Shown: positions 14,839-61,814 of the stretch, in pieces
Layout: each line of letters opens with the position of its first letter
Position numbering within the stretch: the first letter of the stretch is position 1
From: Sulfuricystis multivorans
GTDB taxonomy: Bacteria; Pseudomonadota; Gammaproteobacteria; Burkholderiales; Rhodocyclaceae
Direction: 5' to 3'
DNA: 64,000 nucleotides
Assembly: GCF_003966565.1 (NCBI RefSeq)
Contig: NZ_AP018718.1
Span: forward strand, 806,001-870,000
Translations under genes and position numbers: made by a program
The notes under the pieces: generated by a model
What the model was told of the DNA's origin: nothing
Databases searched by the model: none
The model's input: the letters and a program-made list of their open reading frames with translations, nothing else

Positions 14839-16194
14839 TCACTCGTTCAAACTCGGCGCTGGTGAAACGGCACTGGCTGGGCATTCGGCGGGCTTTTTGG
14901 CGCGCCGGCGGCGGCGCTTCTTGGTGCCGGCGGTCTCGGGTTTCAGCATCGCTTCGCGGGTGGCATGGTCGGCCTCGGCAAAGCGCGCCCACCAATCGAC
15001 GATTTCTTCGGGCAGCTCGCCGCTTTCCGCTCGCAGACGCAAAAAATCCCAGGCGGCACGGAAGCGCGGTTGCTCGATGAGGCGCAGCGGCGCACGGCCG
15101 CCGCGCTTTTCGAAGCGCGGCTGCAAGAGCCAGATTTCCTTGATGTCGCCGATGATGCGGCGGGTGATGGCAAGTTTTTCGCCTTGAGTGTCGAGCACTT
15201 CGTCCATCGCCGCGTGCAAGGCCGGCACCGGAAGCTCACCCTGGTTCTTGCGCGCTTCCCAGTTGGCGAGCACCTCGTGCCACAGCAACGTGGCGAACAG
15301 AAAGCCCGGCGAGGTGCGTTTGCCTTCGCGCACCCGCCGATCGGTGTCGGCAAGCGCCAGCATGACGAATTTTTCGCCCAACGGTTGTTCGAGGATCACA
15401 TCGAGCAGCGGCAGCAGACCGTGGTGCAGACCTTCTTCGCGCAGGCGTTTTACGCATTCGACGGCATGGCCGGAAAACAAGAGCTTCAACATCTCGTCGA
15501 ACAGACGCGCGGCCGGCACGTTCTCGATCAGTTCGGCCATCTCGCGGATCGGCGCCTCGACGGTCGGGTCCATGCGCAAATCGAGCTTTGCGGACAGGCG
15601 TACCGCGCGCAGCATGCGCACCGGGTCTTCGCGGTAGCGGGCACGCGGGTCCCCGATCATGCGCAGGGTCTTGTGCTGCAGATCGCGCACGCCGTGGTGG
15701 TAATCGAAGACCTGTTGCGTGGCCGGATCGTAGTAGAGCGCATTGATCGTGAAATCGCGGCGCGCGGCGTCCTCCTCCATCGTGCCCCAGACGTTGTCGC
15801 GCAGCACGCGGCCGTGCTCGTCTTTCAGCGTGTTTTCGTCGTGGGCGGCGCGGAATGTCGACACCTCGATGGTTTCCTGACCGAACATCACATGCACGAT
15901 CTGGAAACGCCGGCCGATGATGCGCGCGCGGCGGAAGAGATTGCGCACCTGCTCGGGCGTGGCGTCAGTGGCGACGTCGAAATCCTTAGGATCGATGCCG
16001 GCGATCAGATCCCGTACCGCGCCGCCGACGACATAGGCCTTGAAGCCGGCCTGCTGCAGGGTATCAACGGTGCGGCGCGCAGCCGCCGACACTTGTTCAG
16101 GACGGATGCCGTGCTGCTCGGGGCCGATGATCTCGACCGGGCGCGGGGTGGGTTCGCCGCGCCTGAAGACGCGGCGCAGGAGCTTGCGGATCAT
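14839..16194 (-). CDS. pcnB: poly(A) polymerase I
   Basis: A 451-residue nucleotidyltransferase that adds A-tails to RNA 3' ends and promotes decay. The catalytic core is AYVVGGAVRDLI-GIDPKDFDVATDA (two carboxylates of DFD), then GRRFQIVHVMFG and RRDFTINALYYD, where RRDFTIN is the polymerase/CCA family motif. The arginine-rich N-terminus and basic C-terminus (KKRRRRRAKKP) suit RNA binding. The last codons (ASAVSPAPSLNE) are encoded by a degenerate half-copy of the REP-like repeat found elsewhere in the window, so the C-terminal end may have been replaced by it. Confidence 0.95.
   Translation of the reverse strand: MIRKLLRRVFRRGEPTPRPVEIIGPEQHGIRPEQVSAAARRTVDTLQQAGFKAYVVGGAVRDLIAGIDPKDFDVATDATPEQVRNLFRRARIIGRRFQIVHVMFGQETIEVSTFRAAHDENTLKDEHGRVLRDNVWGTMEEDAARRDFTINALYYDPATQQVFDYHHGVRDLQHKTLRMIGDPRARYREDPVRMLRAVRLSAKLDLRMDPTVEAPIREMAELIENVPAARLFDEMLKLLFSGHAVECVKRLREEGLHHGLLPLLDVILEQPLGEKFVMLALADTDRRVREGKRTSPGFLFATLLWHEVLANWEARKNQGELPVPALHAAMDEVLDTQGEKLAITRRIIGDIKEIWLLQPRFEKRGGRAPLRLIEQPRFRAAWDFLRLRAESGELPEEIVDWWARFAEADHATREAMLKPETAGTKKRRRRRAKKPAECPASAVSPAPSLNE
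14850..14872. repeat. REP-like half-unit, pcnB 3' end
   Basis: AACTCGGCGCTGGTGAAACGGC, a degenerate arm of the family (consensus TCGGCGCTGGCGGGACGGC on this strand). It codes for the last residues of PcnB. Confidence 0.5.
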
Positions 16195-16221
16195 TGCCGG
16201 GCGTATGGGTTCATGAGGCGA

Positions 16222-16608
16222 TCAGACCGGAATTACCATGTCGCCATAGCGCGCGATGTCGCGATCGCGGCTGAGCAAACGCATCGGTTCCGTGATGGCT
16301 TGCGCGATCAAGAGACGATCGAAAGGATCGCCATGCAAGCCGGGCAAATGCTCGATGGCCTCGGTGTGACGCCAGCCGACCGGCAGCTCGCGATAGCCTG
16401 CTTGCGCACACAGCTCAGCAGCGCGCGCGCCGGAAATCGGCATGTCGCCGCGGCCCAGGGCATGCTTGATCGCAATCTCCCAGATCGTGACGCTGCTGAC
16501 ATGGATCTCATTGGCCGGATCGCGGATCAGTGCTTCGGCGCGCGTGCCCAGGCACGGCGAGCCGACCAAGGCCCACAGCACGATCTGGGTATCGAGCAGC
16601 AGTCTCAC
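16222..16608 (-). CDS. PIN-domain toxin (VapC-like)
   Basis: 128 residues with the PIN-nuclease acidic residues: LLLDTQIVLWAL (Asp), EIAIKHALGRG (Glu), GDPFDRLLIAQA (Asp) and the end SRDRDIARYGDMVI. It probably cleaves RNA (often initiator tRNA) when freed from its antitoxin. The start overlaps the upstream antitoxin stop by 4 bp, the usual coupling in such pairs. It is downstream of a MITE-like insertion that lies 18 bp before the antitoxin start. Confidence 0.9.
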   Translation of the reverse strand: MRLLLDTQIVLWALVGSPCLGTRAEALIRDPANEIHVSSVTIWEIAIKHALGRGDMPISGARAAELCAQAGYRELPVGWRHTEAIEHLPGLHGDPFDRLLIAQAITEPMRLLSRDRDIARYGDMVIPV

Positions 16609-16850
16609 GTGCCGGCCCGCTCGGAAAACAATGCCGCGATTTCTGCATTTGCAGCGTCGATGTCGTCCGGCACTTCGAATTCACCCCGCGCGATGCCGAT
16701 GCGTCGGCTCGTGTCGTTCTGGATCGGCAGCATGCGCGCAACCGGCTTGCCATTGCGGCAAATGATGATCTCGGTCTGTGCGCCGGTGGCGATCTGGTCG
16801 ACAAGGCGCGACAGGTGGGTTTTGGCATCGAAGAGGCTGACGATTTGCAT
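16605..16850 (-). CDS. Phd/YefM-type antitoxin
   Basis: 81 residues beginning MQIVSLFDAKTHLSRLVDQI, the Phd/YefM DNA-binding and dimerisation fold, with IIICRNGKPVARMLPI typical of the family. The C-terminal part is acidic and likely wraps the PIN toxin. ATG 16850 is the family-typical start. Only 18 bp separate it from the end of the insertion element at 16869-17070, so its native promoter or operator has probably been displaced and transcription may start within the element. Confidence 0.88.
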   Translation of the reverse strand: MQIVSLFDAKTHLSRLVDQIATGAQTEIIICRNGKPVARMLPIQNDTSRRIGIARGEFEVPDDIDAANAEIAALFSERAGT

Positions 16851-16868
16851 AGAGTATTCTTTCGTAAA

Positions 16869-17070
16869 CCCAGATTGTCCATTAGGGCGCGAGGCGATTT
16901 CGAGGCGAGGGCGAGGCGATTTGCGACCGCGCGACGAGCCAATAACGGTGTCTGGCGATACGCGCGGGCGCGAAGGGCCCGCCCGCAGATGATGCGCGCC
17001 CGCGCAGTCCAGCATGGCAAGGTTTGCTCACGCTCATCCGATGACAGGACGGTCTAATGGACAATCTGGG
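16869..17070. mobile_element. MITE-like element A (202 bp, 17-bp TIRs, 5-bp TSD)
   Basis: Perfect 17-bp terminal inverted repeats CCCAGATTGTCCATTAG (16869-16885) and CTAATGGACAATCTGGG (17054-17070). Both ends are flanked by the direct repeat GTAAA (16864-16868 and 17071-17075), a 5-bp target-site duplication. The interior is GC-rich with no convincing reading frame, so the element is non-autonomous. It is inserted just before the antitoxin gene of the PIN toxin pair. Confidence 0.85.
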
Positions 17071-17089
17071 GTAAAGACCAGACTAGTTT

Positions 17090-17205
17090 AGCAGGCCGTT
17101 GTAAAGCGTTGTAAAGCGTTGTAAAGCGTTGTAAAGCGTTGTAAAGCGTTGTAAAGCGGTGAGCATTCTTCGGCGTTGCGCGGTGGCGGGCTCCCTCGCC
17201 CCTAT
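17090..17205. repeat. degenerate copy of the GTTGAAAAAC-ended repeat with a 10-bp tandem array
   Basis: TTAGCAGGCCGTTG at 17088-17101 matches the end of the repeats at 41461 and 45457. The segment from 17159 (GGTGAGCATTCTTCGGCGTTGCG and following CTCCCTCGCC) matches their interior. In between, the unit GTAAAGCGTT occurs five times and a variant sixth time (17101-17160). The right end of the element is missing near the stop of the HAD gene. Confidence 0.75.
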
Positions 17206-17215
17206 TAACAAGCGC

Positions 17216-17878
17216 TCAGCGCAGGCTCAGGATCGGCCAGCCGCGGTGGGCGGCATGGGCGCGCAGCGTGTCGTCGGGGTCGACTGCGACCGGATGGGTC
17301 ACGCGCTCCAGCAAAGGCAGGTCGTTGTGGGAGTCGCTGTAAAAGGTGCTGCGCTCGAAAGCGCCCCACCACAGGCCCATTGCTTCGAGCCAGAGATTCA
17401 GGCGCTCGACTTTGCCTTCCTTGAAGGCGGGGATGCCGCGCGGTGCGCCGGTGAAGTGCCCGTCCGCGCAGGCCGGCACGGTGGCGACGAGGTGCGGGAT
17501 GCCGAATTCGCGGCAGATCGGGCCGGTGACGAAACTGTTGGTCGCAGTGACCATCACGCACAGATCCCCGTCGTCCAGATGGCGTTTGACGAGCCGTCGC
17601 GCGCTATCGCCGATCAGCGGCTGGATGCGTGTGTCCATGAACTCGCGATGCCAGGCGTCGAGCTGACGGCGATCGTGGCGTGATAGCGGCGCGAGCTGGA
17701 ATTTCAGGAAGGCGTGGATGTCGAGGGTGCCAGCCTTGTAGTCCTCGTAGAAGGCCTGATTCTTCGCCTCATGCACTTCGCGGTCGAGCACGCCCTTCGA
17801 AATCAGGAACTGCGCCCATTCGAAGTCGGAGTCGCCGGAAAGCAGGGTGTTGTCGAGATCAAATAGGGCGAGATTCAT
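17216..17878 (-). CDS. HAD-superfamily hydrolase, subfamily IB (SerB-like phosphatase)
   Basis: A 220-residue HAD phosphatase. Motif I is FDLDNTLL, motif II is MVTATNSF, and motif III is the Lys of FKEGKVERL with FYSDSHNDLPLLE. The cap is small (C1 type). It resembles the HAD-IB proteins encoded next to hda in many betaproteobacteria. Its first 20 bp overlap the end of hda, so the two are probably co-translated. The substrate is not predictable; phosphoserine and histidinol-phosphate phosphatases are related. Confidence 0.88.
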   Translation of the reverse strand: MNLALFDLDNTLLSGDSDFEWAQFLISKGVLDREVHEAKNQAFYEDYKAGTLDIHAFLKFQLAPLSRHDRRQLDAWHREFMDTRIQPLIGDSARRLVKRHLDDGDLCVMVTATNSFVTGPICREFGIPHLVATVPACADGHFTGAPRGIPAFKEGKVERLNLWLEAMGLWWGAFERSTFYSDSHNDLPLLERVTHPVAVDPDDTLRAHAAHRGWPILSLR

Positions 17879-18560
17879 CGTCTTCTGGAACGAGGGTGAG
17901 TTGGATGGCTTGCTTGAGTAGCGGCAGGGTGGCCTGCTGCTTGCGTTCGAGCGTGGTGCGATCGAGGTGGTCGAGCACGGCCATCAGGGAGGGAAGATCG
18001 CGCCGGCCATGCGCGAGCAGGTACCGGACGAGACCGTCATCGACCTTGAGGCCACGCTCGAGCGCATGGCGGCGCAGGGCAGCGGCCTTCTCCTCGTCGT
18101 TGAGCGTCTTGACCGCATAGATCAGCGTCTGGCCGATGCGGGTGCGCAAGTCCTCGCGCAGCTCGAGCTTCGTCGGCGGCTTGCCGCCAGCCAACAGCAG
18201 CCCGAGACCGATCAGCCGCGCGGTGTTGAAGATGCGGAACAGCGCCACTTGTGCGTCTGCATCGAGGGCATCGACGTCGTCGACGATCAACAGGCCGCCC
18301 GGCGGCGCGTGGAAATCGGCGCTGGCGGAACGGCACCCCGACAGCAACAACACCGGCCGTCGCCGCAGGGCGCCTCCAGCCGTCGCGCTCAACAGATGGC
18401 TCTTGCCGCAGCCTTTCGCGCCCCACAGGTAAATCGCATCGAAGCAGCCTGGTTCGGCGAGCAGACGCAGCCGCGCCAGCAGCTCGGCATTTTCGCCGAC
18501 GATGAAATTGTCGAAGGAAGGCGGCTGATTGGGCCGCAGATCGAGCAGCAGTTGGGTCAA
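17859..18560 (-). CDS. hda: DnaA regulatory inactivator Hda
   Basis: A 233-residue AAA+ protein related to DnaA domain III that, bound to the sliding clamp, stimulates ATP hydrolysis by DnaA after initiation. The N-terminus QLLLDLRP is a clamp-binding motif. Walker A is GAKGCGKSH, Walker [11 protein letters not shown], and a sensor 2-like end follows. Between the two Walker motifs the segment [13 protein letters not shown] is encoded by a half-copy of the window's REP-like repeat (18312-18336). The gene is divergent from purM and overlaps the HAD gene. Confidence 0.92.
18312..18336. repeat. REP-like half-unit inside hda
   Basis: ATCGGCGCTGGCGGAACGGC within 18312-18336, one mismatch from the consensus arm. 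It codes for CRSASADF between the Walker motifs of Hda. Confidence 0.7.
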
Positions 18561-18670
18561 GGCAGCGTGGGCAATGGAACGTTTCCGGTAGAATCCGCGC
18601 GCAACTTCTTTGCGGCAATGCGAATTATCGCCGCAAATCCTCCCGTTTCGTTCTCAGCCGGCCTTCGACC

Positions 18671-19708
18671 ATGAATTCCTCTTCCCCCTTGACCTATCGC
18701 GACGCGGGTGTCGATATCGATGCCGGCGACGCGCTGGTGGAACGCATCAAGCCGCTTGCCAAGCGCACACTGCGTCCCGAGGTGCTCGGCGGCATCGGCG
18801 GCTTCGGTGCGCTGTGCGATCTGCCGAAGAAGTATCGCGAGCCGGTGCTGGTCTCGGGCACGGACGGCGTCGGCACGAAGCTCAAGCTCGCCTTCCAGCT
18901 CAACCGCCACGACACCGTGGGGCAGGATCTGGTCGCGATGAGCGTCAATGACATCCTCGTGCAAGGGGCGGAGCCTTTGTTTTTTCTCGACTACTTCGCC
19001 TGCGGCAGGCTCGACGTCGGCACCGCGGCATGGGTGATCGGAGGCATCGCGAAAGGCTGTGAGCTCGCCGGCTGTGCGCTGATCGGCGGCGAGACGGCCG
19101 AGATGCCCGACATGTATCCCCCCGGCGAATACGATCTGGCCGGCTTCGCCGTCGGCGTCGTCGAGAAAGCGAAGATCATCGATGGCCGCTCGATCGTGCC
19201 TGGCGACGTCGTGCTGGGCCTGGCTTCGTCCGGGGCGCATTCGAACGGCTATTCGCTGATCCGCCGCATCGTCGAGCGCGCGCAGCCGGACATGGCGGCC
19301 GATTTCCACGGCCGGCCGTTCGCCGATGCGCTCATCGCCCCGACGCGCATCTATGTGAAGTCTCTGCTCGCCTTGATGGAGCGGCTCACGGTGAAGGGCA
19401 TGGCGCATATCACCGGCGGCGGCATCACCGGCAACGTGCCGCGCGTCCTGCCGGAGAACGTGACGGCCGTCATCGAAAGAACGGCATGGCCGCTGCCGCC
19501 ACTGTTTGAGTGGCTGCAGCGCGAAGGCAATGTCGCCGACGACGAGATGCATCGCGTCTTCAACTGCGGCATCGGCATGGTGGTGATCGTCGCCGCCGAG
19601 GATGCCGAGCCGGCCGCGGAATTCCTCATTGCCGCCGGCGAGACCGTTTATCGGCTGGGCCGTATCGAAGCGCGCCGGCCGGGGCAGGCGCAGACGCTGA
19701 TCATCTGA
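18671..19708 (+). CDS. purM: phosphoribosylformylglycinamidine cyclo-ligase (AIR synthetase)
   Basis: A 345-residue PurM. It starts [22 protein letters not shown] and carries [10 protein letters not shown], the ATP-binding [72 protein letters not shown] and [16 protein letters not shown], all family hallmarks (each quoted in part only). It catalyses the fifth step of purine synthesis, closing the imidazole ring. It is divergent from hda and ends 1 bp before the stop codon of the convergent PilZ gene. Confidence 0.98.
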
Positions 19709-21736: not shown

Positions 21737-23590
21737 TCAGCGACCGCGCATGAACAGCCGGTCCAGATCGGCAAGCGTTAGCTGCACCCAGGTCGGGCGG
21801 CCGTGATTGCATTGGTCGGCGCGTTCGGTTTGCTCCATCGCGCGTAACAGCGCATCCATTTCCGGCAGAGAAAGCTGCCGGTGGGCGCGCACTGCGCCAT
21901 GACAGGCAAGCCGGGCGAGGATTTCGTTGCGATGCTGCTCCGACACCTGGCTGGCCGGATGTTCGGCGAGATCATGGAGCAGCGCGCGCACCAGTGCCAC
22001 GATGTCGCCGTCGGCAAGAATCTGCGGCACGGCCCGCACCGCGAGCTGTTGCGGGCCGGCGGGCGCGATTTCGAAGCCGAGTCGATCGAGTGTCGCCGCA
22101 TGTTCCTCGACGCAGGCAAGCTCGGCCGCGCTGGCAAAGATCAGCACTGGCACGAGCAGCATTTGCGTGGCTGGCCGGGCATCGGCGGCCGCCTTCAGTT
22201 TCTCATAGAGGATGCGTTCGTGGGCGGCGTGCATATCGACGATCACGAGCCCCTTGGCGTTCTGCGCCAGGATGTAGATGCCGGATAGCTGGGCGAGCGC
22301 ATGGCCGAGTGGGGGAGCGGTGATATCGACGGTCGAGGCTGGATGAGCGGTAGCTGCAAACGCCCGTTGCACGAATTCGAGATAGGCGGCCGGGGAAGGT
22401 TCGCGTACGGAGAAACTCGTCTGCTGCGGCATGAATGTCGGCGCTGGCGGAAATGAGGGCGTCCCGCCGGGCGCCGACTCGCTCCGGAAAGTCGGCGCTG
22501 GCGGAAATGAAGACGTCCCGCCGGGCGCCGACTCGCTTCGGAAAGTCGGCGCTGGCGGGACGGCACGCATCGGGGCTTTAGCGCCAGCCAGCGGTTCGGC
22601 CAGCGCACGCTCGAGGGCATGGAAGACGAACCGATGCACAGCCTGGCCGTCGCGGAAGCGCACTTCCGTCTTCGCCGGGTGGACATTGACGTCGACTTGC
22701 GCCGGATCGATGTCGAGGAACAACACCCAGGCCGGCTGCAGCGCGCCATGCAGCACGTCGGCATAGGCGGCACGTGCCGCATGGGAAAGCAGCTTGTCGC
22801 GCACGAAGCGGCCATTGACGAAGAAGAGCTGCTCGGCGCGCGTATTTTTCGCATAGGCAGGCAGCGCGGCGAAACCGGTCAGCCGCAGCGGCCCGGCCTG
22901 GGCATCGAGCTTTCGCGCGTGAGCGAAGAACGCCTCTCCCATCAGATCGCGGGTGCGACGCGAAAGATCGGTCGGCGGCAGGCGGCGGCGCATCTGGCCG
23001 TTGTGGGCGAGGGTGAAGCCGACCTCGGGACGTGCCTGGGCCATACGCGCCAGCACCTCGTCGCAGTGCGCGAACTCGGTGGCCGTGCTCTTCAAGAACT
23101 TGCGCCGCGCGGGGGTGCTGAAGTAGAGGTCGGCGACCATCACCACCGTGCCGGCGGAAAGCGCCGCCGGTTTTGGGGCGCCGCCCCGAGCGAGCGTCTC
23201 GGTATCGAGCTGCCAGGCGTGCGGGGCCTCTGCCGTACGGCTGGTGAGGTTCACCCTGGCGACCGAGGCGATCGAGGCCAGCGCCTCGCCACGGAAACCG
23301 TAGCTTCCGACGCGCTCGAGATCATCGAGCGTGGCGATCTTGCTCGTCGCATGGCGGGCGAAGGCGAGCGGCAAGTCGTCGGCTGCGATGCCGCAACCGT
23401 CGTCGGCGACGCGGATTAGCTTGACGCCACCTTCTTCGAGCTCGACGGCGATTTTCGTCGCGCCGGCATCGAGGCTGTTCTCGATCAGCTCCTTGAGCAC
23501 CGAGGCGGGCCGCTCGACGACTTCGCCGGCGGCGATCTGGCTGATCAGGAGATCGGGTAGGGGATGAATGCGGGCCATGAGCCTGCGCAT
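21737..23590 (-). CDS. mutL: DNA mismatch repair protein MutL with repeat-derived linker insertion
   Basis: About 617 residues (ATG 23590; an in-frame ATG at 23578 gives the more usual MARIHPLPDLL start). The GHKL ATPase domain has IAAGEVVERPASVLKEL, ENSLDAGAT, DDGCGI, HATSK, GFRGEAL. The C-terminal dimerisation domain has QLSGIYILAQNAKGLVIVDMHAAHERILYE (in part) and CHGAVRAH. It links MutS mismatch recognition to strand repair. The linker between the domains contains two copies of an 18-residue unit, FPPAPTFRSESAPGGT(S/P)S, plus partial ends, encoded by a 54-bp tandem repeat at 22434-22566 that belongs to the window's REP-like family. Confidence 0.96.
   Translation of the reverse strand: MRRLMARIHPLPDLLISQIAAGEVVERPASVLKELIENSLDAGATKIAVELEEGGVKLIRVADDGCGIAADDLPLAFARHATSKIATLDDLERVGSYGFRGEALASIASVARVNLTSRTAEAPHAWQLDTETLARGGAPKPAALSAGTVVMVADLYFSTPARRKFLKSTATEFAHCDEVLARMAQARPEVGFTLAHNGQMRRRLPPTDLSRRTRDLMGEAFFAHARKLDAQAGPLRLTGFAALPAYAKNTRAEQLFFVNGRFVRDKLLSHAARAAYADVLHGALQPAWVLFLDIDPAQVDVNVHPAKTEVRFRDGQAVHRFVFHALERALAEPLAGAKAPMRAVPPAPTFRSESAPGGTSSFPPAPTFRSESAPGGTPSFPPAPTFMPQQTSFSVREPSPAAYLEFVQRAFAATAHPASTVDITAPPLGHALAQLSGIYILAQNAKGLVIVDMHAAHERILYEKLKAAADARPATQMLLVPVLIFASAAELACVEEHAATLDRLGFEIAPAGPQQLAVRAVPQILADGDIVALVRALLHDLAEHPASQVSEQHRNEILARLACHGAVRAHRQLSLPEMDALLRAMEQTERADQCNHGRPTWVQLTLADLDRLFMRGR
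22434..22566. repeat. REP-like palindromic array inside mutL (54-bp period)
   Basis: GTCGGCGCTGGCGG begins at 22437, 22491 and 22545, a period of exactly 54 bp. Each unit pairs an arm like GTCGGCGCTGGCGGAA with an inverted arm CGTCCCGCCGGGCGCCGACT. 54 bp is 18 codons, so the array keeps the mutL frame. The same units occur at 25968-26150 and at many other sites in the window. Confidence 0.9.
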
Positions 23591-24951: not shown

Positions 24952-25587
24952 ATGAAACCTTATGTGATCCTCATCTCCGGCCGCGGCAGCAACATGCAGG
25001 CGCTCCTCCAAGCCAGGTTGCCCGGTCAATGCGTTGCCGTGATCAGCAACCGTCCGGAGGCGGCCGGCCTTGCCTGGGCCGCCGACCGGGGCGTGCCGAC
25101 GCGCATCGTCGATCATCGGCGATTCCCTGCCCGTGAAGCCTTCGATGCGACGCTGGCCGAGGAAATCGAAGGCGTGGGCGGCGAGCTGGTGTTGCTCGCC
25201 GGCTTCATGCGCATCCTGACACCGGGCTTCGTCGAACGCTTCGCCGGTCGCTTGCTCAACATCCATCCCTCGCTGTTGCCCGCCTTCCCCGGTCTCAATA
25301 CCCACGAGGCGGCGCTGGCCGCCGGCGTGCGCCTGCATGGCTGCACGGTGCATTTCGTCACCTCCGCACTCGATAGCGGGCCGATCATCATCCAGGCCGC
25401 CGTGCCGGTGCTGGCGGGAGATACGCCGGACAGTCTCGCCGCGCGCGTGCTCCAACAGGAACACATCATCTACCCGCAGGCCGCGCGAGCGGTGCTCGAC
25501 GGTCGTTGCCGGCTCGAAAGCGGCCGAGTCGTCTGGGATGACGATGCCACCTCCGCCGATCTCGCCCTGCGGGTTCCCGCACAGTAG
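24952..25587 (+). CDS. purN: phosphoribosylglycinamide formyltransferase
   Basis: A 211-residue GART that formylates GAR using 10-formyl-THF, third step of purine synthesis. It has ISGRGSNMQALL, the IVDHRRFPAREAFD segment, LAGFMRILTPGFVERFAGRLLNIHPSLLPAF (in part; the catalytic Asn and His are in NIHPSLLP), HGCTVHFVT and DSGPIIIQAAVPV. It is the usual first gene of the purN-DUF3108-rsmB-like block of betaproteobacteria. Confidence 0.96.
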   Translation: MKPYVILISGRGSNMQALLQARLPGQCVAVISNRPEAAGLAWAADRGVPTRIVDHRRFPAREAFDATLAEEIEGVGGELVLLAGFMRILTPGFVERFAGRLLNIHPSLLPAFPGLNTHEAALAAGVRLHGCTVHFVTSALDSGPIIIQAAVPVLAGDTPDSLAARVLQQEHIIYPQAARAVLDGRCRLESGRVVWDDDATSADLALRVPAQ

Positions 25588-25594
25588 TCCTTCG

Positions 25595-26815
25595 ATGCTG
25601 CCGTTCTGGCTGGCGCTGGCCGCCTCGCTGATACTGCATGTCGGCGCCTTGCTTGCGCCGGGGTGGTCCTTGCCGGAGGAAGGCGAGAACGAACTACCTC
25701 GCCTCGAGGCGACCTTGGTGTCGGCGCCCATGACGCCAGCGTCACCCCGGGCGGCGCCGTCTGCCAAGAAACGCCCGCGCCCGAAAGCACAGCCCCCCGC
25801 CGCACCGGCTGCATCGACCCAGCCGCAGGCAAGTCCGCCGGCCGCCCATCTGCCGGAGCCTGAGCCGGCCCCTGCAGCGCCTCCAGCGCCCAGCGAACCG
25901 GAAATCCTGCCCGCCGACACTGCCACGGCAGCACCGGTCACCGAGCCTCTTTCGCCTGCCGGGGGTGCCGTCCCGCCAGCGCCGACTTTTCGGGATGAGT
26001 CGGCGCCCGGCGGGACGTCTTCATTTCCGCCAGCGCCGACTTTCCGGGACGAGTCGGCGCCCGGCGGGACGTCTTCATTTCCGCCAGCGCCGACTTTTCG
26101 GGATGAGTCGGCGCCCGGCGGGACGTCTTCATTTCCGCCAGCGCCGACTCATCTGATTCGCTGGCCCGAAAGCGGCCGCATCGTCTATCAGGTGACGCGC
26201 GGCGAGCAGGGGTTCGTCATCGGTCAGACCGAGCAACGCTGGGAGTGGGGCGATGCTCGCTATTCTCTGCAAACCATCGCCGAAACCACCGGCCTCGTCG
26301 CGTTGTTCCGGCCGGTGAAGGTCGTGCAGACCAGCCGCGGTGGTTTCGATGCCGCCGGCGTGCGGCCAATGGAGTTTACGGTCGAGCGCGAGGGGCGTGA
26401 GAGCGAGCGTGTAACATTCGAGCCAGAGGCGGGGCGCGTCGTGTTCAGCCGTGGCGGCAGCGCCCCGTTCGTGGCGGGGGCACAGGATCTGCTCTCGGTC
26501 TTCTTTCAGCTCGCCGGACTGCCGCTCGATACGCCGGAATATGCCGTCAGCGTGGCGACGACACGCAAGCTGGCGAACTACCAGGTCAGGGTGGATGAGG
26601 CGTCCCAGCTCGAAACGCCGCTGGGAACAAGGCCGGTGCGCCATCTGACGGTGCTGGGCCGCCCCAATGAAGATGTCACCGAGCTGTGGCTGGATGAGCA
26701 AACGCGCCTGCCGCTGAAAATCCGCCATCGCGACCGCAAGGGCGAGGTCTTCGACCAGGTCGTCATTGCCATCGAACCTGGATTCCCCTTTGCCGACACG
26801 GACCTGCCACGATGA
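25595..26815 (+). CDS. DUF3108 protein with TonB-like N-terminus and repeat-derived linker
   Basis: 406 residues from ATG 25595. A membrane anchor (MLPFWLALAASLILHVGALL) is followed by a long Pro/Ala-rich region as in TonB-type proteins, then a C-terminal beta-rich DUF3108 domain (from about residue 190; RWPESGRIVYQVTRGEQGF). Between the two sits an array of three 18-residue units, FPPAPTFRDESAPGGTSS, encoded by 54-bp repeats at 25968-26150. The function is unknown; DUF3108 proteins are periplasmic. The last 4 bp overlap the methyltransferase gene. Confidence 0.8.
   Translation: MLPFWLALAASLILHVGALLAPGWSLPEEGENELPRLEATLVSAPMTPASPRAAPSAKKRPRPKAQPPAAPAASTQPQASPPAAHLPEPEPAPAAPPAPSEPEILPADTATAAPVTEPLSPAGGAVPPAPTFRDESAPGGTSSFPPAPTFRDESAPGGTSSFPPAPTFRDESAPGGTSSFPPAPTHLIRWPESGRIVYQVTRGEQGFVIGQTEQRWEWGDARYSLQTIAETTGLVALFRPVKVVQTSRGGFDAAGVRPMEFTVEREGRESERVTFEPEAGRVVFSRGGSAPFVAGAQDLLSVFFQLAGLPLDTPEYAVSVATTRKLANYQVRVDEASQLETPLGTRPVRHLTVLGRPNEDVTELWLDEQTRLPLKIRHRDRKGEVFDQVVIAIEPGFPFADTDLPR
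25968..26150. repeat. REP-like palindromic array inside the DUF3108 gene (54-bp period)
   Basis: Three full 54-bp units plus a terminal half. In each, CGTCCCGCCAGCGCCGACT (or CCGCCAGCGCCGACT) is followed by a loop such as TTTCGGGATG and the inverted arm AGTCGGCGCCCGGCGGGACG. Starts of CGCCAGCGCCGAC lie at 25974, 26028, 26082 and 26136. Period and sequence match the mutL array, which codes for nearly the same peptide in the same frame. Confidence 0.92.
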
Positions 26816-35738: not shown

Positions 35739-35757
35739 AACGCGTCGGATCGGTGCC

Positions 35758-35778
35758 GTTATGCCAGCGCCGAGTTTC
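35758..35778. repeat. REP-like half-unit after dut
   Basis: GCCGTTATGCCAGCGCCGAG, two mismatches from the consensus arm, 20 bp after the dut stop codon. Confidence 0.6.
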
Positions 35779-39398: not shown

Positions 39399-39720
39399 CG
39401 TCAATTCTTCCTCCTCATGTCGTCGCTCGATCTCTGGAAGAGGGATTCGAACCGACGGGATGGGGCGGACATCTACGACCTTCCCGGCCATACGACCCGG
39501 AAACGCTTCCCGACACTGAAACCTCCTCCGCTTCTTCTTCTCTGCGCCTAGCGCATGGCTTATGTCGAGAAATTATTACAGCGATCGCTGATTTGAATCA
39601 AGAGGTTTTATCGAACAATTTTTTAGGTGAATATATCCGAATCTTCTAATACTTGAGGGGTGGGAACGAGCTGCCGTCTTCCCAGCGCCGAATTTGGCTG
39701 CGGCGCTGGGATAGGCGGAG
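39399..39720. other. promoter region between the cytochrome operon and aceB
   Basis: Holds the leader of the NapC-like gene, the FNR-like box at 39588-39601, and, close to the aceB stop codon, a hairpin TCCCAGCGCC/GGCGCTGGGA (39684-39712) whose left arm is a half-copy of the REP-like family. No reading frame is convincing. Confidence 0.6.
39588..39601. promoter_or_regulatory. FNR/Dnr-like site upstream of the cytochrome operon
   Basis: CTGATTTGAATCAA differs from TTGAT-N4-ATCAA at one base. Acting at -41.5 it would start leftward transcription near 39553, with a leader of about 155 bases before the NapC-like gene. It suggests oxygen or NO control together with nosZ. Confidence 0.55.
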
Positions 39721-41460: not shown

Positions 41461-41672
41461 AACAGGCTGTTGAAAAACTACTGCGGTGGGCGTTCTTCCG
41501 CGTTGCGCGGTGTTGGCTTCGGCCGCTTCGCTTAACCTCGGCAAAGCCAAAGTGAGCCTTCGCCGCAACTTCGTTGTCGCTCCCTCGCCTATCTTATTGA
41601 TAGACTTCGGTCGCTGCGCACCAAACGCCTTGCATCTGGCCATCCTCGTGACGTTTTTCAACGGCCTGCTAA
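41461..41672. repeat. GTTGAAAAAC-ended palindromic repeat, copy 1
   Basis: About 210 bp with inverted ends ACAGGCTGTTGAAAAAC (41462-41478) and GTTTTTCAACGGCCTGCT (41653-41670). The interior includes CTCCCTCGCCTATCTTATTG and CATCTGGCCATCCTCGTGAC, shared with copy 2. It carries about 60 bp more than copy 2. Its right end supplies the stop codon of the glycerate kinase gene. Confidence 0.85.
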
Positions 41673-42946
41673 GTACGGGGAAGGTAAATCGCACGAAAAT
41701 CGTTGACGTTGGTGCGTGTCGGCCCGGTAACGATCAGCTGGCCAAGGGCGGCGAAAAAGCCATAGCCGTCGTTGTTCGCCAGAAAGTCGGCGCTGGCGAG
41801 ACGGCACGCCGCGGCGCGTTCATGCACATCGGGCCCGAACCAGGCGCCGGCGTTGTCTTCGGTGCCGTCGATGCCATCGGTATCGCAGGCGAGTGCCCAG
41901 GCCGGGACGTCGAGTACATGGGCGAGCGCGAGCAGGAATTCGGCGTTGCGGCCGCCGCGGCCATTGCCGCGCACGGTGACGGTCGTCTCGCCGCCGGAAA
42001 GGATCACACAGGGCTTGGCAATGGGTTCGTCGTAACGATGGATCTGGCGGGCGATCGCGGCATGGACATAGGCCACGTCGCGCGCCTCGCCTTCGATCGT
42101 GTCGCCCAGCACCAGCGGTGTGACGCCTTGACAGCGGGCAAAGGTAGCCGCGGCCTGCAACGCCTGCTGCGCAGTGGCGATGATGCGGGTTTCGCAGTGC
42201 GCTAATCGCGGATCGCCTGGTTTCGGCGTCTCGCATTCTGCGCTTCCGAGCCAGGCGCGAACGTGCGGCGGCACCTCGATCCGGTATTTGGCGAGAATGC
42301 CGAGCGCGTCGCTGCACGTGGTCGGATCGGCCACCGTCGGCCCCGAGGCGAGCGCGGACGGGTCGTCGCCTGGGATGTCCGAGATGCCCAAGGTCACCAC
42401 CCGTGCAGGCGCGCAGGCGAGTGCCAGTCGCCCGCCTTTGATCGCCGACAGGTGCTTTCTGACGCAATTCATCTCGTGGATGTTCGCACCGCTTTTCAAC
42501 AAGGCTTTGCTCACCGCCTGCTTGTCGGCCAGCCGCAGGCCCGGGGCGGGCAGGGCCAGCAGCGCCGAGCCGCCGCCCGAGATCAAGCACAGCACCAGAT
42601 CGTCGGCCGTCAGCCCTCTGACGCGTTCGAATATCAGGCGCGCCGCCTGCTCGCCGGCGGCGTCTGGCAACGGGTGGGCGGCTTCGACCACTTCGACGCG
42701 TCGCGTCGGAACGCCGTGGCCGTAGCGCGTCACGACCAGGCCGGAAAGCGGCGCGTCGCTTGGCCAATGCGCCTCGACCGCCGCCGCCATCGCCGCTGCG
42801 GCCTTGCCGGCGCCGATCACGACGGTGCGTCCCCGCGGTGGGGTAGGTAGACGACCAGGCACGCAAATGGCCGGATCGACTGCAGCGAGTGCCGCGTCGA
42901 ACAGGTCGCGCAGAAAGATTTCCGGATTGTCGATCGATGCCATCAT
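41669..42946 (-). CDS. glycerate 2-kinase (GckA/TtuD, MOFRL family)
   Basis: A 425-residue DUF4147/MOFRL protein. It shows VVIGAGKAAAAMAAAVEAHW, LCLISGGGSALLALPAPG, KHLSAIKGGRLA, ILSGGETTVTVRGNGRGGRN and the end TNVNDFRAIYLPRT (each in part). It phosphorylates glycerate to 2-phosphoglycerate, a step that suits a glyoxylate/glycerate route near aceA and aceB. Near the C-terminus CRLASADFL is encoded by a half-copy of the REP-like family (41783-41807), and the stop codon lies in the adjoining repeat. Confidence 0.88.
   Translation of the reverse strand: MMASIDNPEIFLRDLFDAALAAVDPAICVPGRLPTPPRGRTVVIGAGKAAAAMAAAVEAHWPSDAPLSGLVVTRYGHGVPTRRVEVVEAAHPLPDAAGEQAARLIFERVRGLTADDLVLCLISGGGSALLALPAPGLRLADKQAVSKALLKSGANIHEMNCVRKHLSAIKGGRLALACAPARVVTLGISDIPGDDPSALASGPTVADPTTCSDALGILAKYRIEVPPHVRAWLGSAECETPKPGDPRLAHCETRIIATAQQALQAAATFARCQGVTPLVLGDTIEGEARDVAYVHAAIARQIHRYDEPIAKPCVILSGGETTVTVRGNGRGGRNAEFLLALAHVLDVPAWALACDTDGIDGTEDNAGAWFGPDVHERAAACRLASADFLANNDGYGFFAALGQLIVTGPTRTNVNDFRAIYLPRT
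41783..41807. repeat. REP-like half-unit inside the glycerate kinase gene
   Basis: AAAGTCGGCGCTGGCGAGAC, then GGCAC, one mismatch from the consensus arm. It codes for CRLASADF near the C-terminus. Confidence 0.7.
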
Positions 42947-43951: not shown

Positions 43952-43954
43952 CTG

Positions 43955-44036
43955 CCGTCCCGCCAACGCCGAGTATTCGAAATGACTCGGCGCCCGGCGG
44001 GACGTCGAAATTTCCGCCAGCGCCGAATTTCGATGG
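43955..44036. repeat. complete REP-like palindromic unit between lysR and aceA
   Basis: CCGTCCCGCCAACGCCGAGT, a loop ATTCGAAATG, the inverted arm ACTCGGCGCCCGGCGGGACG, then a further arm TTTCCGCCAGCGCCGAATTT. Same organisation as the arrays inside mutL and the DUF3108 gene, but between genes. It lies directly downstream of lysR and beyond the aceA terminator. Confidence 0.9.
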
Positions 44037-45456: not shown

Positions 45457-45602
45457 AGCAGGCTGTTGAAAAACTACTGCGGTGGCCATCTGCGGCGTTG
45501 CGCGGTGCTCGCTCCCTCGCCTATCTTATTGATATGTCTCGGTCGCTGCGCTCCGTGCGCCTTACATCTGGCCATCCTCGTGACGTTTTTCAACGGCCTG
45601 TT
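45457..45602. repeat. GTTGAAAAAC-ended palindromic repeat, copy 2
   Basis: 146 bp with inverted ends AGCAGGCTGTTGAAAAAC (45457-45474) and GTTTTTCAACGGCCTGTT (45585-45602). Its interior closely matches copy 1 (41461-41672) minus a 60-bp stretch. It lies 45 bp before the aceA start codon, between aceA and its probable operator. Confidence 0.88.
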
Positions 45603-49358: not shown

Positions 49359-49375
49359 TTTAGACGGTAGCTGTG

Positions 49376-49410
49376 CCGTCCCGCCAGCGCCGATTTTCGA
49401 GGGCGCTGAC
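49376..49410. repeat. REP-like half-unit after the cold-shock gene
   Basis: GCCGTCCCGCCAGCGCCGA, the family's consensus arm, at 49376-49394, followed by TTTTCGAGGGCGCTG. It sits between the stop codon and the terminator, and reads in the same direction as the gene. Confidence 0.75.
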
Positions 49411-49413
49411 GAC

Positions 49414-53046: not shown

Positions 53047-53068
53047 TGCCGTTCTGCCAGCGCCGAAT
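53046..53068. repeat. REP-like half-unit after the DUF192 gene
   Basis: GCCGTTCTGCCAGCGCCGAA, two mismatches from the consensus arm, directly after the DUF192 stop codon. Confidence 0.65.
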
Positions 53069-53110
53069 TTGTTAATCTGAAGGCCCATCAAAGCACACAA
53101 GGAGTTGCGC

Positions 53111-55985: not shown

Positions 55986-56032
55986 CGAATAATTTGTAAC
56001 AGTGAGGTTCCCTCGGGTTTTCGTTTGCCAAT

Positions 56033-56229: not shown

Positions 56230-56232
56230 AAC

Positions 56233-56260: not shown

Positions 56261-56275
56261 CGAAGCTGCGTGGGA

Positions 56276-56860: not shown

Positions 56861-56920
56861 GTCGTTCTCCTGTTCATTGGGGTTGAAGTCTCATGAGCCA
56901 TGTGGTGCTCGCACATGATT

Positions 56921-58207: not shown

Positions 58208-58516
58208 AATGGCAGATGCAGGCGCTTTGCGAATGCTACCTCATCCACAATCGCGTTTCGTCTCCGAAACATTTCCCGACAGGTGACCCAAGTGCCGCCC
58301 AAAACCCGGGGTATCCATATAAGTCATTGATTAATAACGATAAATATTTTGGTCAGTTTTGCGACGAAGTAACAAAAGTCCTTTTCCGTAGGCTACTTAG
58401 GAGCATGATGCGCAAACGATTCACAAAGTTATCCACAAATTTTGGGGATAATTCGAACAGCCGCCGTTTCCGGCCGCTGACTTCGTTCGGCGAGCCTTTC
58501 TGATTTTTTCCTGCCG
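58208..58516. other. intergenic region with DnaA boxes and an AT-rich stretch
   Basis: A perfect DnaA box TTATCCACA at 58429-58437 and an inverted near-box TGGGGATAA (TTATCCCCA) at 58443-58451 lie 5 bp apart. A weaker TCATCCACA is at 58241-58249. An AT-rich run (ATTGATTAATAACGATAAAT) lies at 58325-58344. No reading frame. It could be a DnaA-controlled promoter of the Sel1-repeat gene, a DnaA-titrating site, or part of an origin; dnaA and dnaN are not nearby. Confidence 0.5.
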
Positions 58517-60493
58517 ATGAACCTCGTCCCGCTGGAAACCCCTGCGCTGCTCGGCTTGTTTCGCGAAGCCCTCGATGGCAGCCTGATCGAGCGCGGCATC
58601 GCCGAAGGGCTCGATCTCATCGGGCATGCCGATACTTTCTGGCAGAGTGTCGAGGCGTCGGAATTGCAACGCATGGCGCAGGGCGGCAATCCTCACGCCC
58701 AAGCGGAGCTGGCCTGGCGTTGCGCGCTCGGCAAGGAAACGCCACCATCGGCGCAGGATGCGGTGCGCTGGGCGACACGCAGCGCGCAGCGCCAATGCCC
58801 GGCCGGCTACGCGGTTCTCGGTTGGCTGCTCTATCAGGGCATCGGGCTGCCGCGCGATTTCCGTGAAGCGGCGGCGCTCTTCGAGCGGGCCGCGCAGCAG
58901 CAGGATGGCCGCGGCGCGACCTGGTTCGCGCTCTGCCTGCTGCGCGGGCATGGCGTGGCTGCGGACAGCGAGCGCGGGCTGTCCTTGCTGCGTGAAACGG
59001 CCGAGCGCGGCAATCGCGAGGCGCAGTATTGGATGGGCAGATTGTCCTATTCGGGCGATTGCCTTCCCGTCGATTTCGCCGCGGCCGTGGCGTGGTTGCG
59101 CCGAGCCAGTGGGCAAGGCCATGCCGAAGCGTCCGATCTGCTTGCACGCTGCTGCTTTTTCGGTCGCGGCATCGCCCCAGACCGCGCCGAAGCCGTGCGA
59201 CTGTGGCGCGAAGCCGCCCAGGCGGGGGTGCCGACGGCGATGTTCAGCCTGGGCCTTTGTCTTTATGCGGGGGAAGGGGTGGCAGTCGATCATGCCGAAG
59301 CGGTGCGCTGGCTGCGTGCCGCGGCACGGCACGGGGTGGTCGAAGCGATGACCCTGCTCGGCCAATGCGCCACCTTTGGCTTCGGCCTGCCCGCCGACCC
59401 GGCTGCCGGCGTGGCCTGGTATCGTCGGGCGGCCGCGCTGGGCAGCCGCGAAGCGCAGTTCGAGCTCGCCGAAGCCCATGCGACCGGCTATGGGCTGGTC
59501 GAGCGCGATTTGACGCAAGCCGTGCATTGGTGGCGCGAGGCGGCGAGCCGCAATCATGCGCGCGCGCAGCTCAAGCTGGGCCATTGCTACCGTTGGGGCG
59601 AAGGCGTCGAGGAAGACAAGGCGCTGGCGCTCGCCTGGTATCGGCGGGCTGCGGCCGGTGGCGAGGCGAGCGCCCACGTCTGGCTCGGGGAATGTCACGA
59701 GCATGGCGAGGGCGTGGCGGCCGATCCGGTCGCGGCGCGTCGCCATTACCATGAGGCCGCCACGGCAGGGCTTGCGCATGGCAAGGCCGAGCTGGGACGT
59801 TGTCTGCTGTATGGGATCGGTGGCCAGGCCGACATCGAGCGCGGCGAGACCCTGTTGCGCGAAGCGGCCGAGCAGGGCTGGCAGCCGGCGCTGGACGAGC
59901 TGGAACGTTATTGGTTCAACGAGGGCGAGCGTCATTTCCACGGCCGCGGCACGATCGTCGATGCCGCGCGTGCGCGCGAGTGCTATCGCAAGGCGGGTGA
60001 GCTTGGCCACCGGCGCGCCGCCTGGATGCTGGCCGAATGCCTGCGGCATGGTCTGGGCGGCCCTGCCGATGTCGTGCAGGCGGTGACCTGGTATCGCCGT
60101 GCCGCGATCCTGTTCGACGCCAAGCTGGCGCTTGCGGATCTTTATTACCACGGCGAGGGGGTGGCGCAGAATTACCGCGAGGCCTATCGCTGGTTCGCGC
60201 AGGCGGTCGAGCAGCACGAGGATGCCTATGCGCTCTACAGCCTCGGTTTCATGCTGCTTCACGGCCAGGGGGTGCGCCGCGATGCGAAGCGTGCTCTGAA
60301 GTATTTGCGCCGCGCGGCATTGCTCGGCGATCCGAACGCGCAGTATGAGCTCGGCTGTGCCTGGTATCGCGGCGTCGGCGGCACGAAGAATCCAAAGCTG
60401 GCAATGAAGTGGCTGCGCATGGCCGCCGCGCATGGACACGAGGCCGCGCGCGCCTTCCTCGAACGCATCGGCGAGGGAAAGAAGCTCAATTGA
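58517..60493 (+). CDS. long Sel1-repeat (SLR) protein
   Basis: A 658-residue protein made almost entirely of Sel1-like helical repeats, about sixteen units of 36 residues with the pattern A-x2-Y/W-x-LG-x-CL-x2-G-x-GV-x2-D-x3-A-x2-W-x2-(K/R)AA. No signal peptide or membrane segment is seen, so it is probably cytoplasmic. Such proteins serve as protein-binding scaffolds, often in stress or envelope signalling. The start follows a DnaA-box region. Its end overlaps the convergent sensor kinase gene by 8 bp. Confidence 0.9.
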   Translation: MNLVPLETPALLGLFREALDGSLIERGIAEGLDLIGHADTFWQSVEASELQRMAQGGNPHAQAELAWRCALGKETPPSAQDAVRWATRSAQRQCPAGYAVLGWLLYQGIGLPRDFREAAALFERAAQQQDGRGATWFALCLLRGHGVAADSERGLSLLRETAERGNREAQYWMGRLSYSGDCLPVDFAAAVAWLRRASGQGHAEASDLLARCCFFGRGIAPDRAEAVRLWREAAQAGVPTAMFSLGLCLYAGEGVAVDHAEAVRWLRAAARHGVVEAMTLLGQCATFGFGLPADPAAGVAWYRRAAALGSREAQFELAEAHATGYGLVERDLTQAVHWWREAASRNHARAQLKLGHCYRWGEGVEEDKALALAWYRRAAAGGEASAHVWLGECHEHGEGVAADPVAARRHYHEAATAGLAHGKAELGRCLLYGIGGQADIERGETLLREAAEQGWQPALDELERYWFNEGERHFHGRGTIVDAARARECYRKAGELGHRRAAWMLAECLRHGLGGPADVVQAVTWYRRAAILFDAKLALADLYYHGEGVAQNYREAYRWFAQAVEQHEDAYALYSLGFMLLHGQGVRRDAKRALKYLRRAALLGDPNAQYELGCAWYRGVGGTKNPKLAMKWLRMAAAHGHEAARAFLERIGEGKKLN

Positions 60494-61814
60494 CGGGCAG
60501 CACGATCCGGGCAGCCAGGCCCCCGCCTTCGCGGGGCAGGAGTTCCAGACGCCCGCCGTGGGCGCGGGCGATGCGCTCGACGATCGCCAGTCCCAGTCCC
60601 GCGCCGGCGGCGCCGGTGCGTGCCGCCTCGCCGCGCGTGAAGGGCTGCTTCAGGCGCTCGGCGTCCTCTGGGGCGATGCCGGGTCCGCGGTCGAGCACCG
60701 CGATGACGAGCCGGCCGTCTTCCCGCTCGAGCGTCAATTCCACCGCTGCGGTGCCGCCGCCGTGACGCAGCGCATTTTCGATCAGATTGACGACCGCCCG
60801 CCTAAGAGGCTCACGCTGGATCGGGTGCAGAAACTCGGCGCTGGCGGGACGGCACTTCACCTTGTCGCCATAGCGCGCGGCGATCTCTCCAAGCCACGGA
60901 GCGAGATTGGTCGGCTCCAGCGCGACGCTCCGCTGCGCCTTATGGCGCGCGAAGTCGAGGAACTGGCCGATGGTGCGATCCATTTCGTCGATGTCGGCGG
61001 CCATGTCGGCGCGCGCCTGCGGATCGCTGACCGAAATCTCGATCTCCATGCGCAGGCGCGCGAGCGGCGTGCGCAGGTCGTGCGAAATGCCGGCGAGCAG
61101 CAGCCGGCGATCTTCTTCGAGACGTTTCAGGCTCTCGCTCATCTGGTTGAAGGCGTGGGTGACGGCGACGATCTCGTCTGGCCCTTTTTCGGGCAAAGGT
61201 GAGGGTGTTTCGCCCTGGCCGAGCTTGCCTGCCGCGGCTTCAAGCGCTTTGAGCGGGCGCGAGATGCGCAGCACGATCAGCCAGGCGCCGGCGAGTGCGA
61301 GGAGCAGTACCAGCGCGCCCCAACCGAGCCATTGCAGCGGAAAGCGGCCTTCGAGGCGTTCGCGCGGCAGGGCGAGCCAAAACACGCCATCTTCGCCGGG
61401 AAAGAGGCGGAAGCTGACGAACAGCCCCGGCTCATCGTTGAGCTCGAAGGCAAGCCTTGTTTCGGTGCCGAGCCGCTCGCGCAGATCGCTTTCCAGATGA
61501 CGCATCAGCGCTGTGGCTGGCGGTGGGACGATCCGGTCGTCGGCCTCGGCTGGATAGACATGCACGCCCTCGACGTCGGAGAGATCGGCGAGCACATCGA
61601 TGCGTCGCTCCGGCCGCGCAGCGAGCAATGCGGTGCGCGTCAGATTGCTGATGCTGACGATCGTCTGGGCCAGCGCGTGGGCGCGCGGCTCGATTTCGGC
61701 CTGACGGAAGATCGCCAGCCAAGCGCCGACCGCCGCGAGCATCAGCGTCGCGATCAGCAGGAAAGCGCGCCAGAGCAGGCTATGCGGCAGCAGGCGCGTC
61801 GGGGACGAAGACAT
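60486..61814 (-). CDS. EnvZ-type sensor histidine kinase
   Basis: 442 residues from ATG 61814. TM helices about 15-35 and 185-205 flank a periplasmic domain of about 145 residues. HAMP, then HisKA with the phospho-acceptor His in LLAGISHDLRTPLARLRMEIE (in part), then HATPase (NLIENALRHGG, DRGPGI, GAGLGLAIVERIA). It overlaps the regulator gene by 35 bp. Between HisKA and the N box, KCRPASAEFL is encoded by a half-copy of the REP-like family (60832-60856). Confidence 0.93.
   Translation of the reverse strand: MSSSPTRLLPHSLLWRAFLLIATLMLAAVGAWLAIFRQAEIEPRAHALAQTIVSISNLTRTALLAARPERRIDVLADLSDVEGVHVYPAEADDRIVPPPATALMRHLESDLRERLGTETRLAFELNDEPGLFVSFRLFPGEDGVFWLALPRERLEGRFPLQWLGWGALVLLLALAGAWLIVLRISRPLKALEAAAGKLGQGETPSPLPEKGPDEIVAVTHAFNQMSESLKRLEEDRRLLLAGISHDLRTPLARLRMEIEISVSDPQARADMAADIDEMDRTIGQFLDFARHKAQRSVALEPTNLAPWLGEIAARYGDKVKCRPASAEFLHPIQREPLRRAVVNLIENALRHGGGTAAVELTLEREDGRLVIAVLDRGPGIAPEDAERLKQPFTRGEAARTGAAGAGLGLAIVERIARAHGGRLELLPREGGGLAARIVLPVN
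60832..60856. repeat. REP-like half-unit inside the EnvZ-like gene
   Basis: AACTCGGCGCTGGCGGGACG followed by GCAC, an exact consensus arm. It codes for KCRPASAEF in the catalytic region of the kinase. Confidence 0.75.

Follow-up and report, generated by a model that had tools for sequence, protein, structure and literature searches.

The window studied here, the 64,000-nucleotide stretch C1:806001-870000 of Sulfuricystis multivorans (Rhodocyclaceae), carries a short repeat scattered between and inside its genes. What is this repeat, how did its copies come to lie where they do and which protein might read it? An earlier note on the window had described a REP-like (repetitive extragenic palindromic) family, likened more to the protein-coding palindromic elements of Rickettsia than to ordinary intergenic REPs. 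We find instead that the family is mostly a single 24-base tag which has evolved in place at hundreds of genome sites, and we think it probable that this tag is a DNA uptake sequence (DUS), a self-tag of 24-25 bp read during natural transformation.

Genomes and searches

The S. multivorans genome (G000) comprises 2.81 Mb in three contigs. Its MutL finds its closest match in metagenome-assembled genomes of the Rhodocyclaceae, at 69% identity, in a search that may omit records very near the window. It was compared mainly with a syntenic single-contig congener, G017, the pieces of which that align to G000 are mostly 84-91% identical. The motif was re-derived from 162 sites, taken from 424 kb of G000 together with 440 kb of G017; sites were called with the refined 24-mer at up to two mismatches. 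The chance level for the originally described arm was taken from 100 dinucleotide shuffles of the window. Copies were counted in 121 genomes, including 19 of the genus and one genome from each of 54 other genera of the family. The gene caller used for the strand and intergenic counts was crude; it overlooked the DUF3108 open reading frame (ORF), so that site 25966 is scored as intergenic.

Structure and abundance of the motif

The repeat is real, as had been proposed, and genome-wide. Its arm is matched 14 times in the window at up to three mismatches, whereas the shuffled sequences averaged 0.14 matches and none had more than three; the refined 24-mer gives 13 sites (Table 1). Ten of the 11 places previously listed for the arm do contain it (up to three mismatches) within about 12 nt. 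The other, 22434, is the far end of an array and holds the constant part only, the whole arm being found at 22546. The count of 11 or more places was borne out, with further sites at 7259-7282 and 9856-9879 outside the earlier list.

The unit, G-TGCCGT-NNN-GCCAGCGCCGA-N-TTT, has two parts and is not a palindrome. In the logo of the 162 sites TGCCGT and GCCAGCGCCGA-N-TTT are fixed, positions 7-9 are free but pyrimidine-rich and position 21 is free; the flanks hold hardly any information and no signal is seen past position 0. The 14-mer core CCAGCGCCGANTTT occurs 214 times in G000 (122 forward, 92 reverse), compared with once for the pattern read backwards, and a longer pattern is divided between the strands 95/96 in G000 and 156/157 in G017. 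The 424 kb of G000 contain 75 sites and the 440 kb of G017 contain 87, a density of approximately one per 5-6 kb, from which we extrapolate to about 500 copies per genome. An Rfam scan of the window and a blastn search of the tandem array against plasmids gave no match.

Conservation and strand

At the 40 sites that align without a gap, the fixed positions are identical between G000 and G017 in 770 of 800 cases (96%), the free positions in 132 of 160 and the flanks in 2326 of 2709 (86%). This profile excludes sites lacking an orthologous interval (17 of the 75 in G000 and 18 of the 87 in G017) and those gapped inside the motif (18 and 16, respectively). The excess of fixed over flanking identity holds separately for the 16 sense, 15 antisense and nine intergenic or edge sites of G000. 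It is also found at 53 ungapped sites of G017, where it is weakest in the intergenic class (p = 0.02). We take these comparisons to show that a recognition motif is under constraint.

Genic sites are divided into 23 sense and 23 antisense in the G000 sample and into 33 and 29 in that of G017, and they occupy more than one reading frame. Because the fixed bases are over-conserved, on both strands and in more than one frame, the motif is recognized at the level of DNA and not as a peptide. The claim that the arm always lies on the coding strand stands for each of the six genes it was made for (pcnB, hda, mutL, the DUF3108 gene, the DUF4147/MOFRL gene of glycerate kinase type and the RisS/EnvZ-like gene) but not for the site at 7259, which is antisense in an M48 peptidase gene, nor for the 424 kb as a whole. 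Intergenic sites make up 26 of 75 in G000 and 22 of 87 in G017, compared with 13 and 10% of bases assigned as non-coding by the crude caller.

Origin of the sites

An orthologous interval in G017 was available for 58 of the 75 G000 sites. Of these, 40 are ungapped inside the motif and 18 are gapped, and the G017 interval contains motif-like sequence (up to three mismatches) in 54. In the mirror test on the 87 G017 sites there were 69 intervals, 53 of them ungapped and 58 with motif-like sequence.

The MutL codons at 22964-22987 offer a closer view. The region could be aligned in 17 congeners, 15 of them without a change in length, and ranges from no motif through partial to perfect versions when mismatches are scored against a motif that admits the dialect letters described below. 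It is perfect in G007, G009 and G011 (CGCCGTCTCGCCAGCGCCGACTTT, reading RRLASADF), has one mismatch in G001, G006 and G016, two in G013, three in G002 and G018, four in G010, five in G004 and G008, and seven or eight in G017, G003 and G005; G000 itself has no motif here. In G012 and G015 the MutL gene contains a short insertion whose end is motif-like; insertion thus occurs as well. At the hda site (18312-18335) the motif is present in seven of 14 genomes (G000 counted), in the TG or CG dialect, and is lacking in the other seven. As judged from these alignments, motif sites arise in place by substitution and recombination, not by transposition; the exceptions are the 18 gapped sites among the 58, the two MutL insertions and the hairpin arrays considered below.

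Distribution and dialects

The constant half CCAGCGCCGANTTT is present in 112-451 copies in 18 of the 19 genomes of the genus, G000 included. The exception is G005, a congener with a MutL 60% identical, in which there are no copies. A de novo spaced-word search of 108.5 kb of G005 gave a top score of 19, compared with 43 and 73 in 110-kb controls from G000 and G017; plain 10-mer enrichment was insensitive, and even the known motif did not rank at the top. G005 has either lost the tag system or never had it. Among the other genera of the family, G019, G026, G055 and G063 have 92-439 copies of the constant half and the rest of the 54 have 12 or fewer.

When TGCCGT is required in front, the counts are 379 in G003, 313 in G017 and 191 in G000 but two in G004 and none in G016; they collapse in some congeners because the six-base half differs between species. 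Ahead of the same second half we noted TGCCGT, CGCCGT, CACCGT, CGCCGC and GGCCGT. CGCCGC is the dialect of G016, CACCGT that of G004 and GGCCGT mainly that of G006, while CGCCGT is found in G007, G009, G010, G026 and G055, and mixtures occur in G011, G001, G002, G012, G019, G063 and G285. The labels were assigned by hand, from 1-11 sites per genome except in G000 and G017, and G011, G001, G002 and G012 are mixed. On a MutL tree from which G005, G015 and the Thauera row had been dropped, the labels (16 genomes of the genus) require four changes in all, which is the minimum possible and was equalled in none of 200 shuffles. With these labels, clustering of the dialects along the host phylogeny is shown.

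Viral contigs of IMG/VR (L314-L393) contain GCCGTNNNGCCAGCGCCGANTTT in at least 120 stretches, one contig having five copies, mostly 316 nt apart. Phages of tag-bearing hosts may have picked up the tag.

What reads the motif

Dispersed tags of nearly balanced strand that evolve in place and fall into clade dialects are, by analogy with the known systems, the signature of a DNA uptake sequence. In such a system the 24-25-bp tag would be recognized at the cell surface by a DNA receptor belonging to the type IV pilus. Tag-bearing DNA would be imported preferentially and then recombined, and tags would for this reason pile up genome-wide, on either strand, at any place where protein or intergenic sequence can accommodate them. 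They would originate by substitution and recombination, not transposition, and would drift to species dialects while the receptor changes. We infer both that the reader is a DNA-uptake receptor and which protein it might be: the candidate is a minor pilin such as FimT or one of the ComP/PilE-type proteins found in G000.

Of the transformation machinery, ComEC and DprA are each present in 18 of 19 genomes of the genus and a ComP_DUS-family pilin in 17 of 19. G000 has all three together with a cluster of minor-pilin-like genes. In a signature search, with the names assigned by reading, three such genes were adjacent in eight of the nine carriers read and two in G004.

Among the closest known systems is the DUS of the Neisseriaceae, a family also of the Betaproteobacteria, in which the reader is the minor pilin ComP. 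As described in excerpts of three papers (PMC3630211, PMC2397512, PMC12616744), the DUS too occurs in hundreds to thousands of copies, genic and intergenic, with dialects that vary by clade while one part stays constant, with inverted copies located at terminators and with differences that point mutation does not account for. One excerpt reports that the dialects agree with phylogeny, that a single genome can contain two of them and that inverted pairs lie at terminators (PMC3630211); in another, Treangen et al. found some DUS too unlike their orthologues for point mutation and inferred recombination (PMC2397512). The tag of G000 differs in being 24-25 bp long and bipartite, with a free 3-nt spacer and about 500 copies per genome by extrapolation, and in that the Rhodocyclaceae receptor is putative and no stand-alone ComEA was found in the 19 genomes. 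The uptake signal sequence (USS) of the Pasteurellaceae, with a 9-nt core and two AT-rich blocks, is likewise discontinuous, can span about 30 nt according to the part of PMC12616744 consulted, and has more than one dialect. The Rhodocyclaceae tag resembles it in ending in TTT one base past the constant half but has a different core, a GC-rich second half and a host of a different class.

Several observations weigh against an uptake sequence. ComEC and ComP-family pilins are also present in most motif-free genomes, and the motif-free G005 has ComEC and DprA; the presence of ComP_DUS, ComEC or DprA does not tell a carrier from a non-carrier (for DprA, within the genus only). Stand-alone ComEA was not found in the 19 genomes of the genus, none of which reached the TIGR00426 cut-off. 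HHH_3 scored above its cut-off in 15 of the 19, always in frames of 620-1723 amino acids, the one in G000 being confirmed as Tex, and two weak matches that fell short of the cut-off are found in frames of 234 and 382 amino acids. We know of no report of transformation for the genus. At 24-25 bp the motif exceeds a DUS or USS in length, and at about one per 5-6 kb it is sparser than either. The TG group taken alone requires three changes on the MutL tree (13 of 500 shuffles were as low), in which the base of the genus is unresolved, and the four-base block variant described below is unexplained by single substitutions. Finally, DNA without an alignment to the congener shows no drop in site density: in G000 it has 16 sites in 77 kb, compared with 59 in 347 kb of aligned DNA, and in G017 it has 16 in 90 kb, compared with 71 in 350 kb. 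Nine unaligned blocks of at least 3 kb hold 21 sites in 132 kb; five of the nine, chosen afterwards as likely islands, are motif-poor, with two sites in 33 kb.

Some of these points would suit a binding site for an intracellular DNA protein unrelated to uptake, such as a nucleoid organizer or a partition, recombination or repair factor. With such a reader, in-place evolution, conservation of fixed bases and dialects would look alike, and the absence of a canonical ComEA from our searches and the failure of ComEC and the pilins to track the motif would cause no difficulty. We nevertheless consider this explanation unlikely in view of the near-equal strands, the scatter over coding and intergenic DNA, the 24-bp specificity at about 500 places (extrapolated) and the species dialects, which are a known trait of uptake sequences. 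KOPS (FtsK-orienting polar sequences) and Chi are short and polar, sites of the matS, parS and Noc kinds are few, and we know of no intracellular binding-site system with about 500 strand-balanced 24-bp sites.

In open PubMed Central (PMC) papers we found no literature joining DNA uptake sequences with Rhodocyclaceae and, among the matches listed, no report of uptake sequences outside the Neisseriaceae and Pasteurellaceae. The strings GCCAGCGCCGA and TCGGCGCTGGC gave just unrelated occurrences, as judged from the matches listed, the peptide string CRPASA was not found in the same collection, and the palindromic-repeat literature offered nothing on this tag family among the matches listed. The suggestion of an undescribed family has thus held up: it is large and genome-wide, and no description of it was found. 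The portion of a 2025 paper that we consulted places uptake sequences only in Neisseriaceae and Pasteurellaceae (PMC12616744).

A four-base block variant

G000 contains 13 exact copies of a variant of the motif, TGCCGTNNNGAAGCCGCCGANTTT, in which AAGC stands in place of CCAG (the GAAGC type); a search of 72 other genomes found none. One copy lies in an apparent pheT (L274; read by eye). Fifteen loci were compared, comprising the 13 exact copies and two near-matches in the sampled stretch. Nine have a spanning orthologue in the G017 stretches and six have none to compare. Eight of these nine orthologues have a motif of the ordinary or nearly ordinary form (0-2 mismatches), without a gap inside, so that at these eight loci it is a block of 4-5 bases that differs; the ninth (L271) has no motif. 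No intermediate between the CCAG and AAGC blocks was found among 48 sites in the 424 kb of G000.

Repeated, independent substitutions of single bases are unlikely to have produced this pattern. It would have arisen either by intake from an unsampled lineage with a GAAGC dialect or by conversion among motif copies over a few bases. The first possibility can be likened to the 'peregrine' DUS of Neisseria, as presented in an excerpt of PMC3630211. In the second, some machinery would write or copy the motif block into existing motif-like sites by ectopic short-tract conversion, for example through annealing of short imported or displaced single strands. The restriction of 13 exact copies to one genome, the ungapped block differences from G017 and the lack of intermediates would all be expected of such a process, and transformation can integrate very short fragments. 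As a general explanation of the motif we regard it as quite improbable, however: introgression through ordinary recombination from an unsampled lineage of the same dialect fits equally well, the intermediates at the MutL site display stepwise change too, six of the 15 loci lack a spanning orthologue in the G017 stretches compared and one orthologue is motif-free.

Returning to the uptake sequence, a more far-reaching proposal is possible, if doubtful. The tag may represent a third, independently evolved uptake-sequence system outside the Neisseriaceae and Pasteurellaceae, in which a long bipartite tag keeps one half constant across several Rhodocyclaceae genera and uses the other as a species password. 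Block conversion would contribute to keeping its copies alike, perhaps through short imported single strands that bear the tag and anneal to them, and the 13-locus GAAGC variant would show this process under way.

If the tag is an uptake sequence, the Rhodocyclaceae would be the third family known to discriminate, at uptake, between their own DNA and that of others. Several dialects are spread over the 18 carriers in the genus and those of other genera, and this diversity would allow the receptor to be traced by co-variation and the origin, spread and change of such tags to be studied. Even with another reader protein, several hundred constrained 24-bp sites, some of them in mutL and hda, would be a strong constraint on the genome that we have not found described.

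Hairpin units and transposable elements

Units in which the motif is followed by the inverted arm had been described as the full units but are the exception, at three of the 13 sites in the window, four of the 75 in G000 and five of the 87 in G017. Folding supports a palindrome in two hairpin units (z = -5.60 and -6.43) but not in two lone 24-mers (z = +1.41 and +1.85, no fold). The hairpin units of 54 nt (18 codons) stand in tandem, two in mutL and three in the DUF3108 gene, while G017 has a lone motif at both places. The idea of insertions in genes is correct for these units, which are extra sequence, but single motifs are mostly ungapped. In our view, the tandem units are best explained as a secondary expansion at a few sites. 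Inverted DUS and USS pairs often serve as terminators according to the consulted part of PMC12616744, and by analogy the hairpin units may do the same.

Strong hairpin folds, tandem 54-nt arrays and more than 100 copies recall REP elements or bacterial interspersed mosaic elements (BIMEs) moved by a REP-associated tyrosine transposase (RAYT), for which a gene search had been suggested. A profile search for the Y1_Tnp transposase gave no match in G000 or G017; five of the 19 genomes of the genus have one. The palindrome is missing at most sites, and many sites are genic, without an insertion gap and evolved in place. The REP-like label is not supported, since the majority of sites are lone motifs without a palindrome and a search of G000 for a RAYT-type transposase gave nothing; for the single sites this class is contradicted, and for the family it is very improbable.

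Rickettsia palindromic elements (RPEs) are palindromic units in frame in genes, and an origin of this type is hardly tenable here. The 54-nt units that keep the reading frame of mutL and of the DUF3108 gene fit it, as does the MutL insertion in G012 and G015, but in-frame insertion absent from the orthologue holds just for the hairpin arrays compared with G017, whereas most single sites contradict it: they are ungapped (40 of 58) or face motif-like sequence (54 of 58), half of the genic sites are antisense, more than one frame is used, and codons are replaced with MutL length kept in 15 of 17 orthologues. The common form of the tag is neither an insertion nor strand-specific.

Sites and other repeats in the window

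The sites in the window are collected in Table 1.

Table 1. Motif sites and related features in the window
Feature	Position	Strand	Context
Motif, 2 mismatches	7259-7282	+	Antisense in M48 peptidase gene (6962-8269, -), gene reads VVGAGDTA; motif there in G017, 1 mismatch
Motif, 1 mismatch	9856-9879	-	Sense in ORF 8880-10457, without Pfam match
Motif, 1 mismatch	14849-14872	-	3' end of pcnB (14839-16194, -); congener versions CGCCGT and TGCCGT
Motif	18312-18335	-	In hda (17859-18560, -), reads CRSASADF
Perfect motif (22542-22565), then two 54-nt hairpin units	22433-22566	-	Sense, MutL linker (21737-23590, -); single motif in G017
Motif-free place in G000 mutL	22964-22987	-	Perfect motif at same codons in G007, G009, G011
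Perfect motif (25966-25989), then three 54-nt hairpin units	25965-26150	+	In frame, DUF3108 ORF (25337-26815, +); single motif in G017
Perfect motif	35754-35777	+	Intergenic, directly before terminator-like hairpin (by eye)
Motif, 1 mismatch	39672-39695	+	Intergenic
Perfect motif	41783-41806	-	Sense, DUF4147/MOFRL (glycerate kinase type) gene (41669-42946), reads CRLASADF
Motif (2 mismatches), inverted arm and further half-motif forming one hairpin unit	43953-44030	+	Intergenic; common to G017
Perfect motif	49374-49397	+	Intergenic, adjoins terminator-like hairpin (by eye); intact in G017
Perfect motif	53047-53070	+	Intergenic; G017 motif, 1 mismatch, beside private insert
Perfect motif	60831-60854	-	Sense, RisS/EnvZ-like sensor kinase gene (60486-61928, -), reads CRPASAEF; ungapped, intact in G017

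Other repeats were noted alongside the motif. An insert of approximately 170-180 nt containing ATGCGCAAAAATAAACGCCCGCCC is present in three copies in the 440 kb of G017 (L156 ~15006, L157 ~11331 and L177 ~3728) and is absent from the 424 kb of G000; two of the three adjoin motif sites, the orthologues of window position 53047 and of G000 C1 ~870890. A second family in the window, at 41577-41668 and 45509-45600, is 92 nt long with its two members 90% alike, and its tail ACGTTTTTCAACGGCCTG has five copies in the 424 kb of G000 and no exact copy in the 440 kb of G017. A 10-bp tandem repeat, CGTTGTAAAG, of about six copies occupies 17087-17166 and was not found in the G017 stretch. Lastly, a 181-nt duplication at 1-181 and 4714-4894 is 94% identical.

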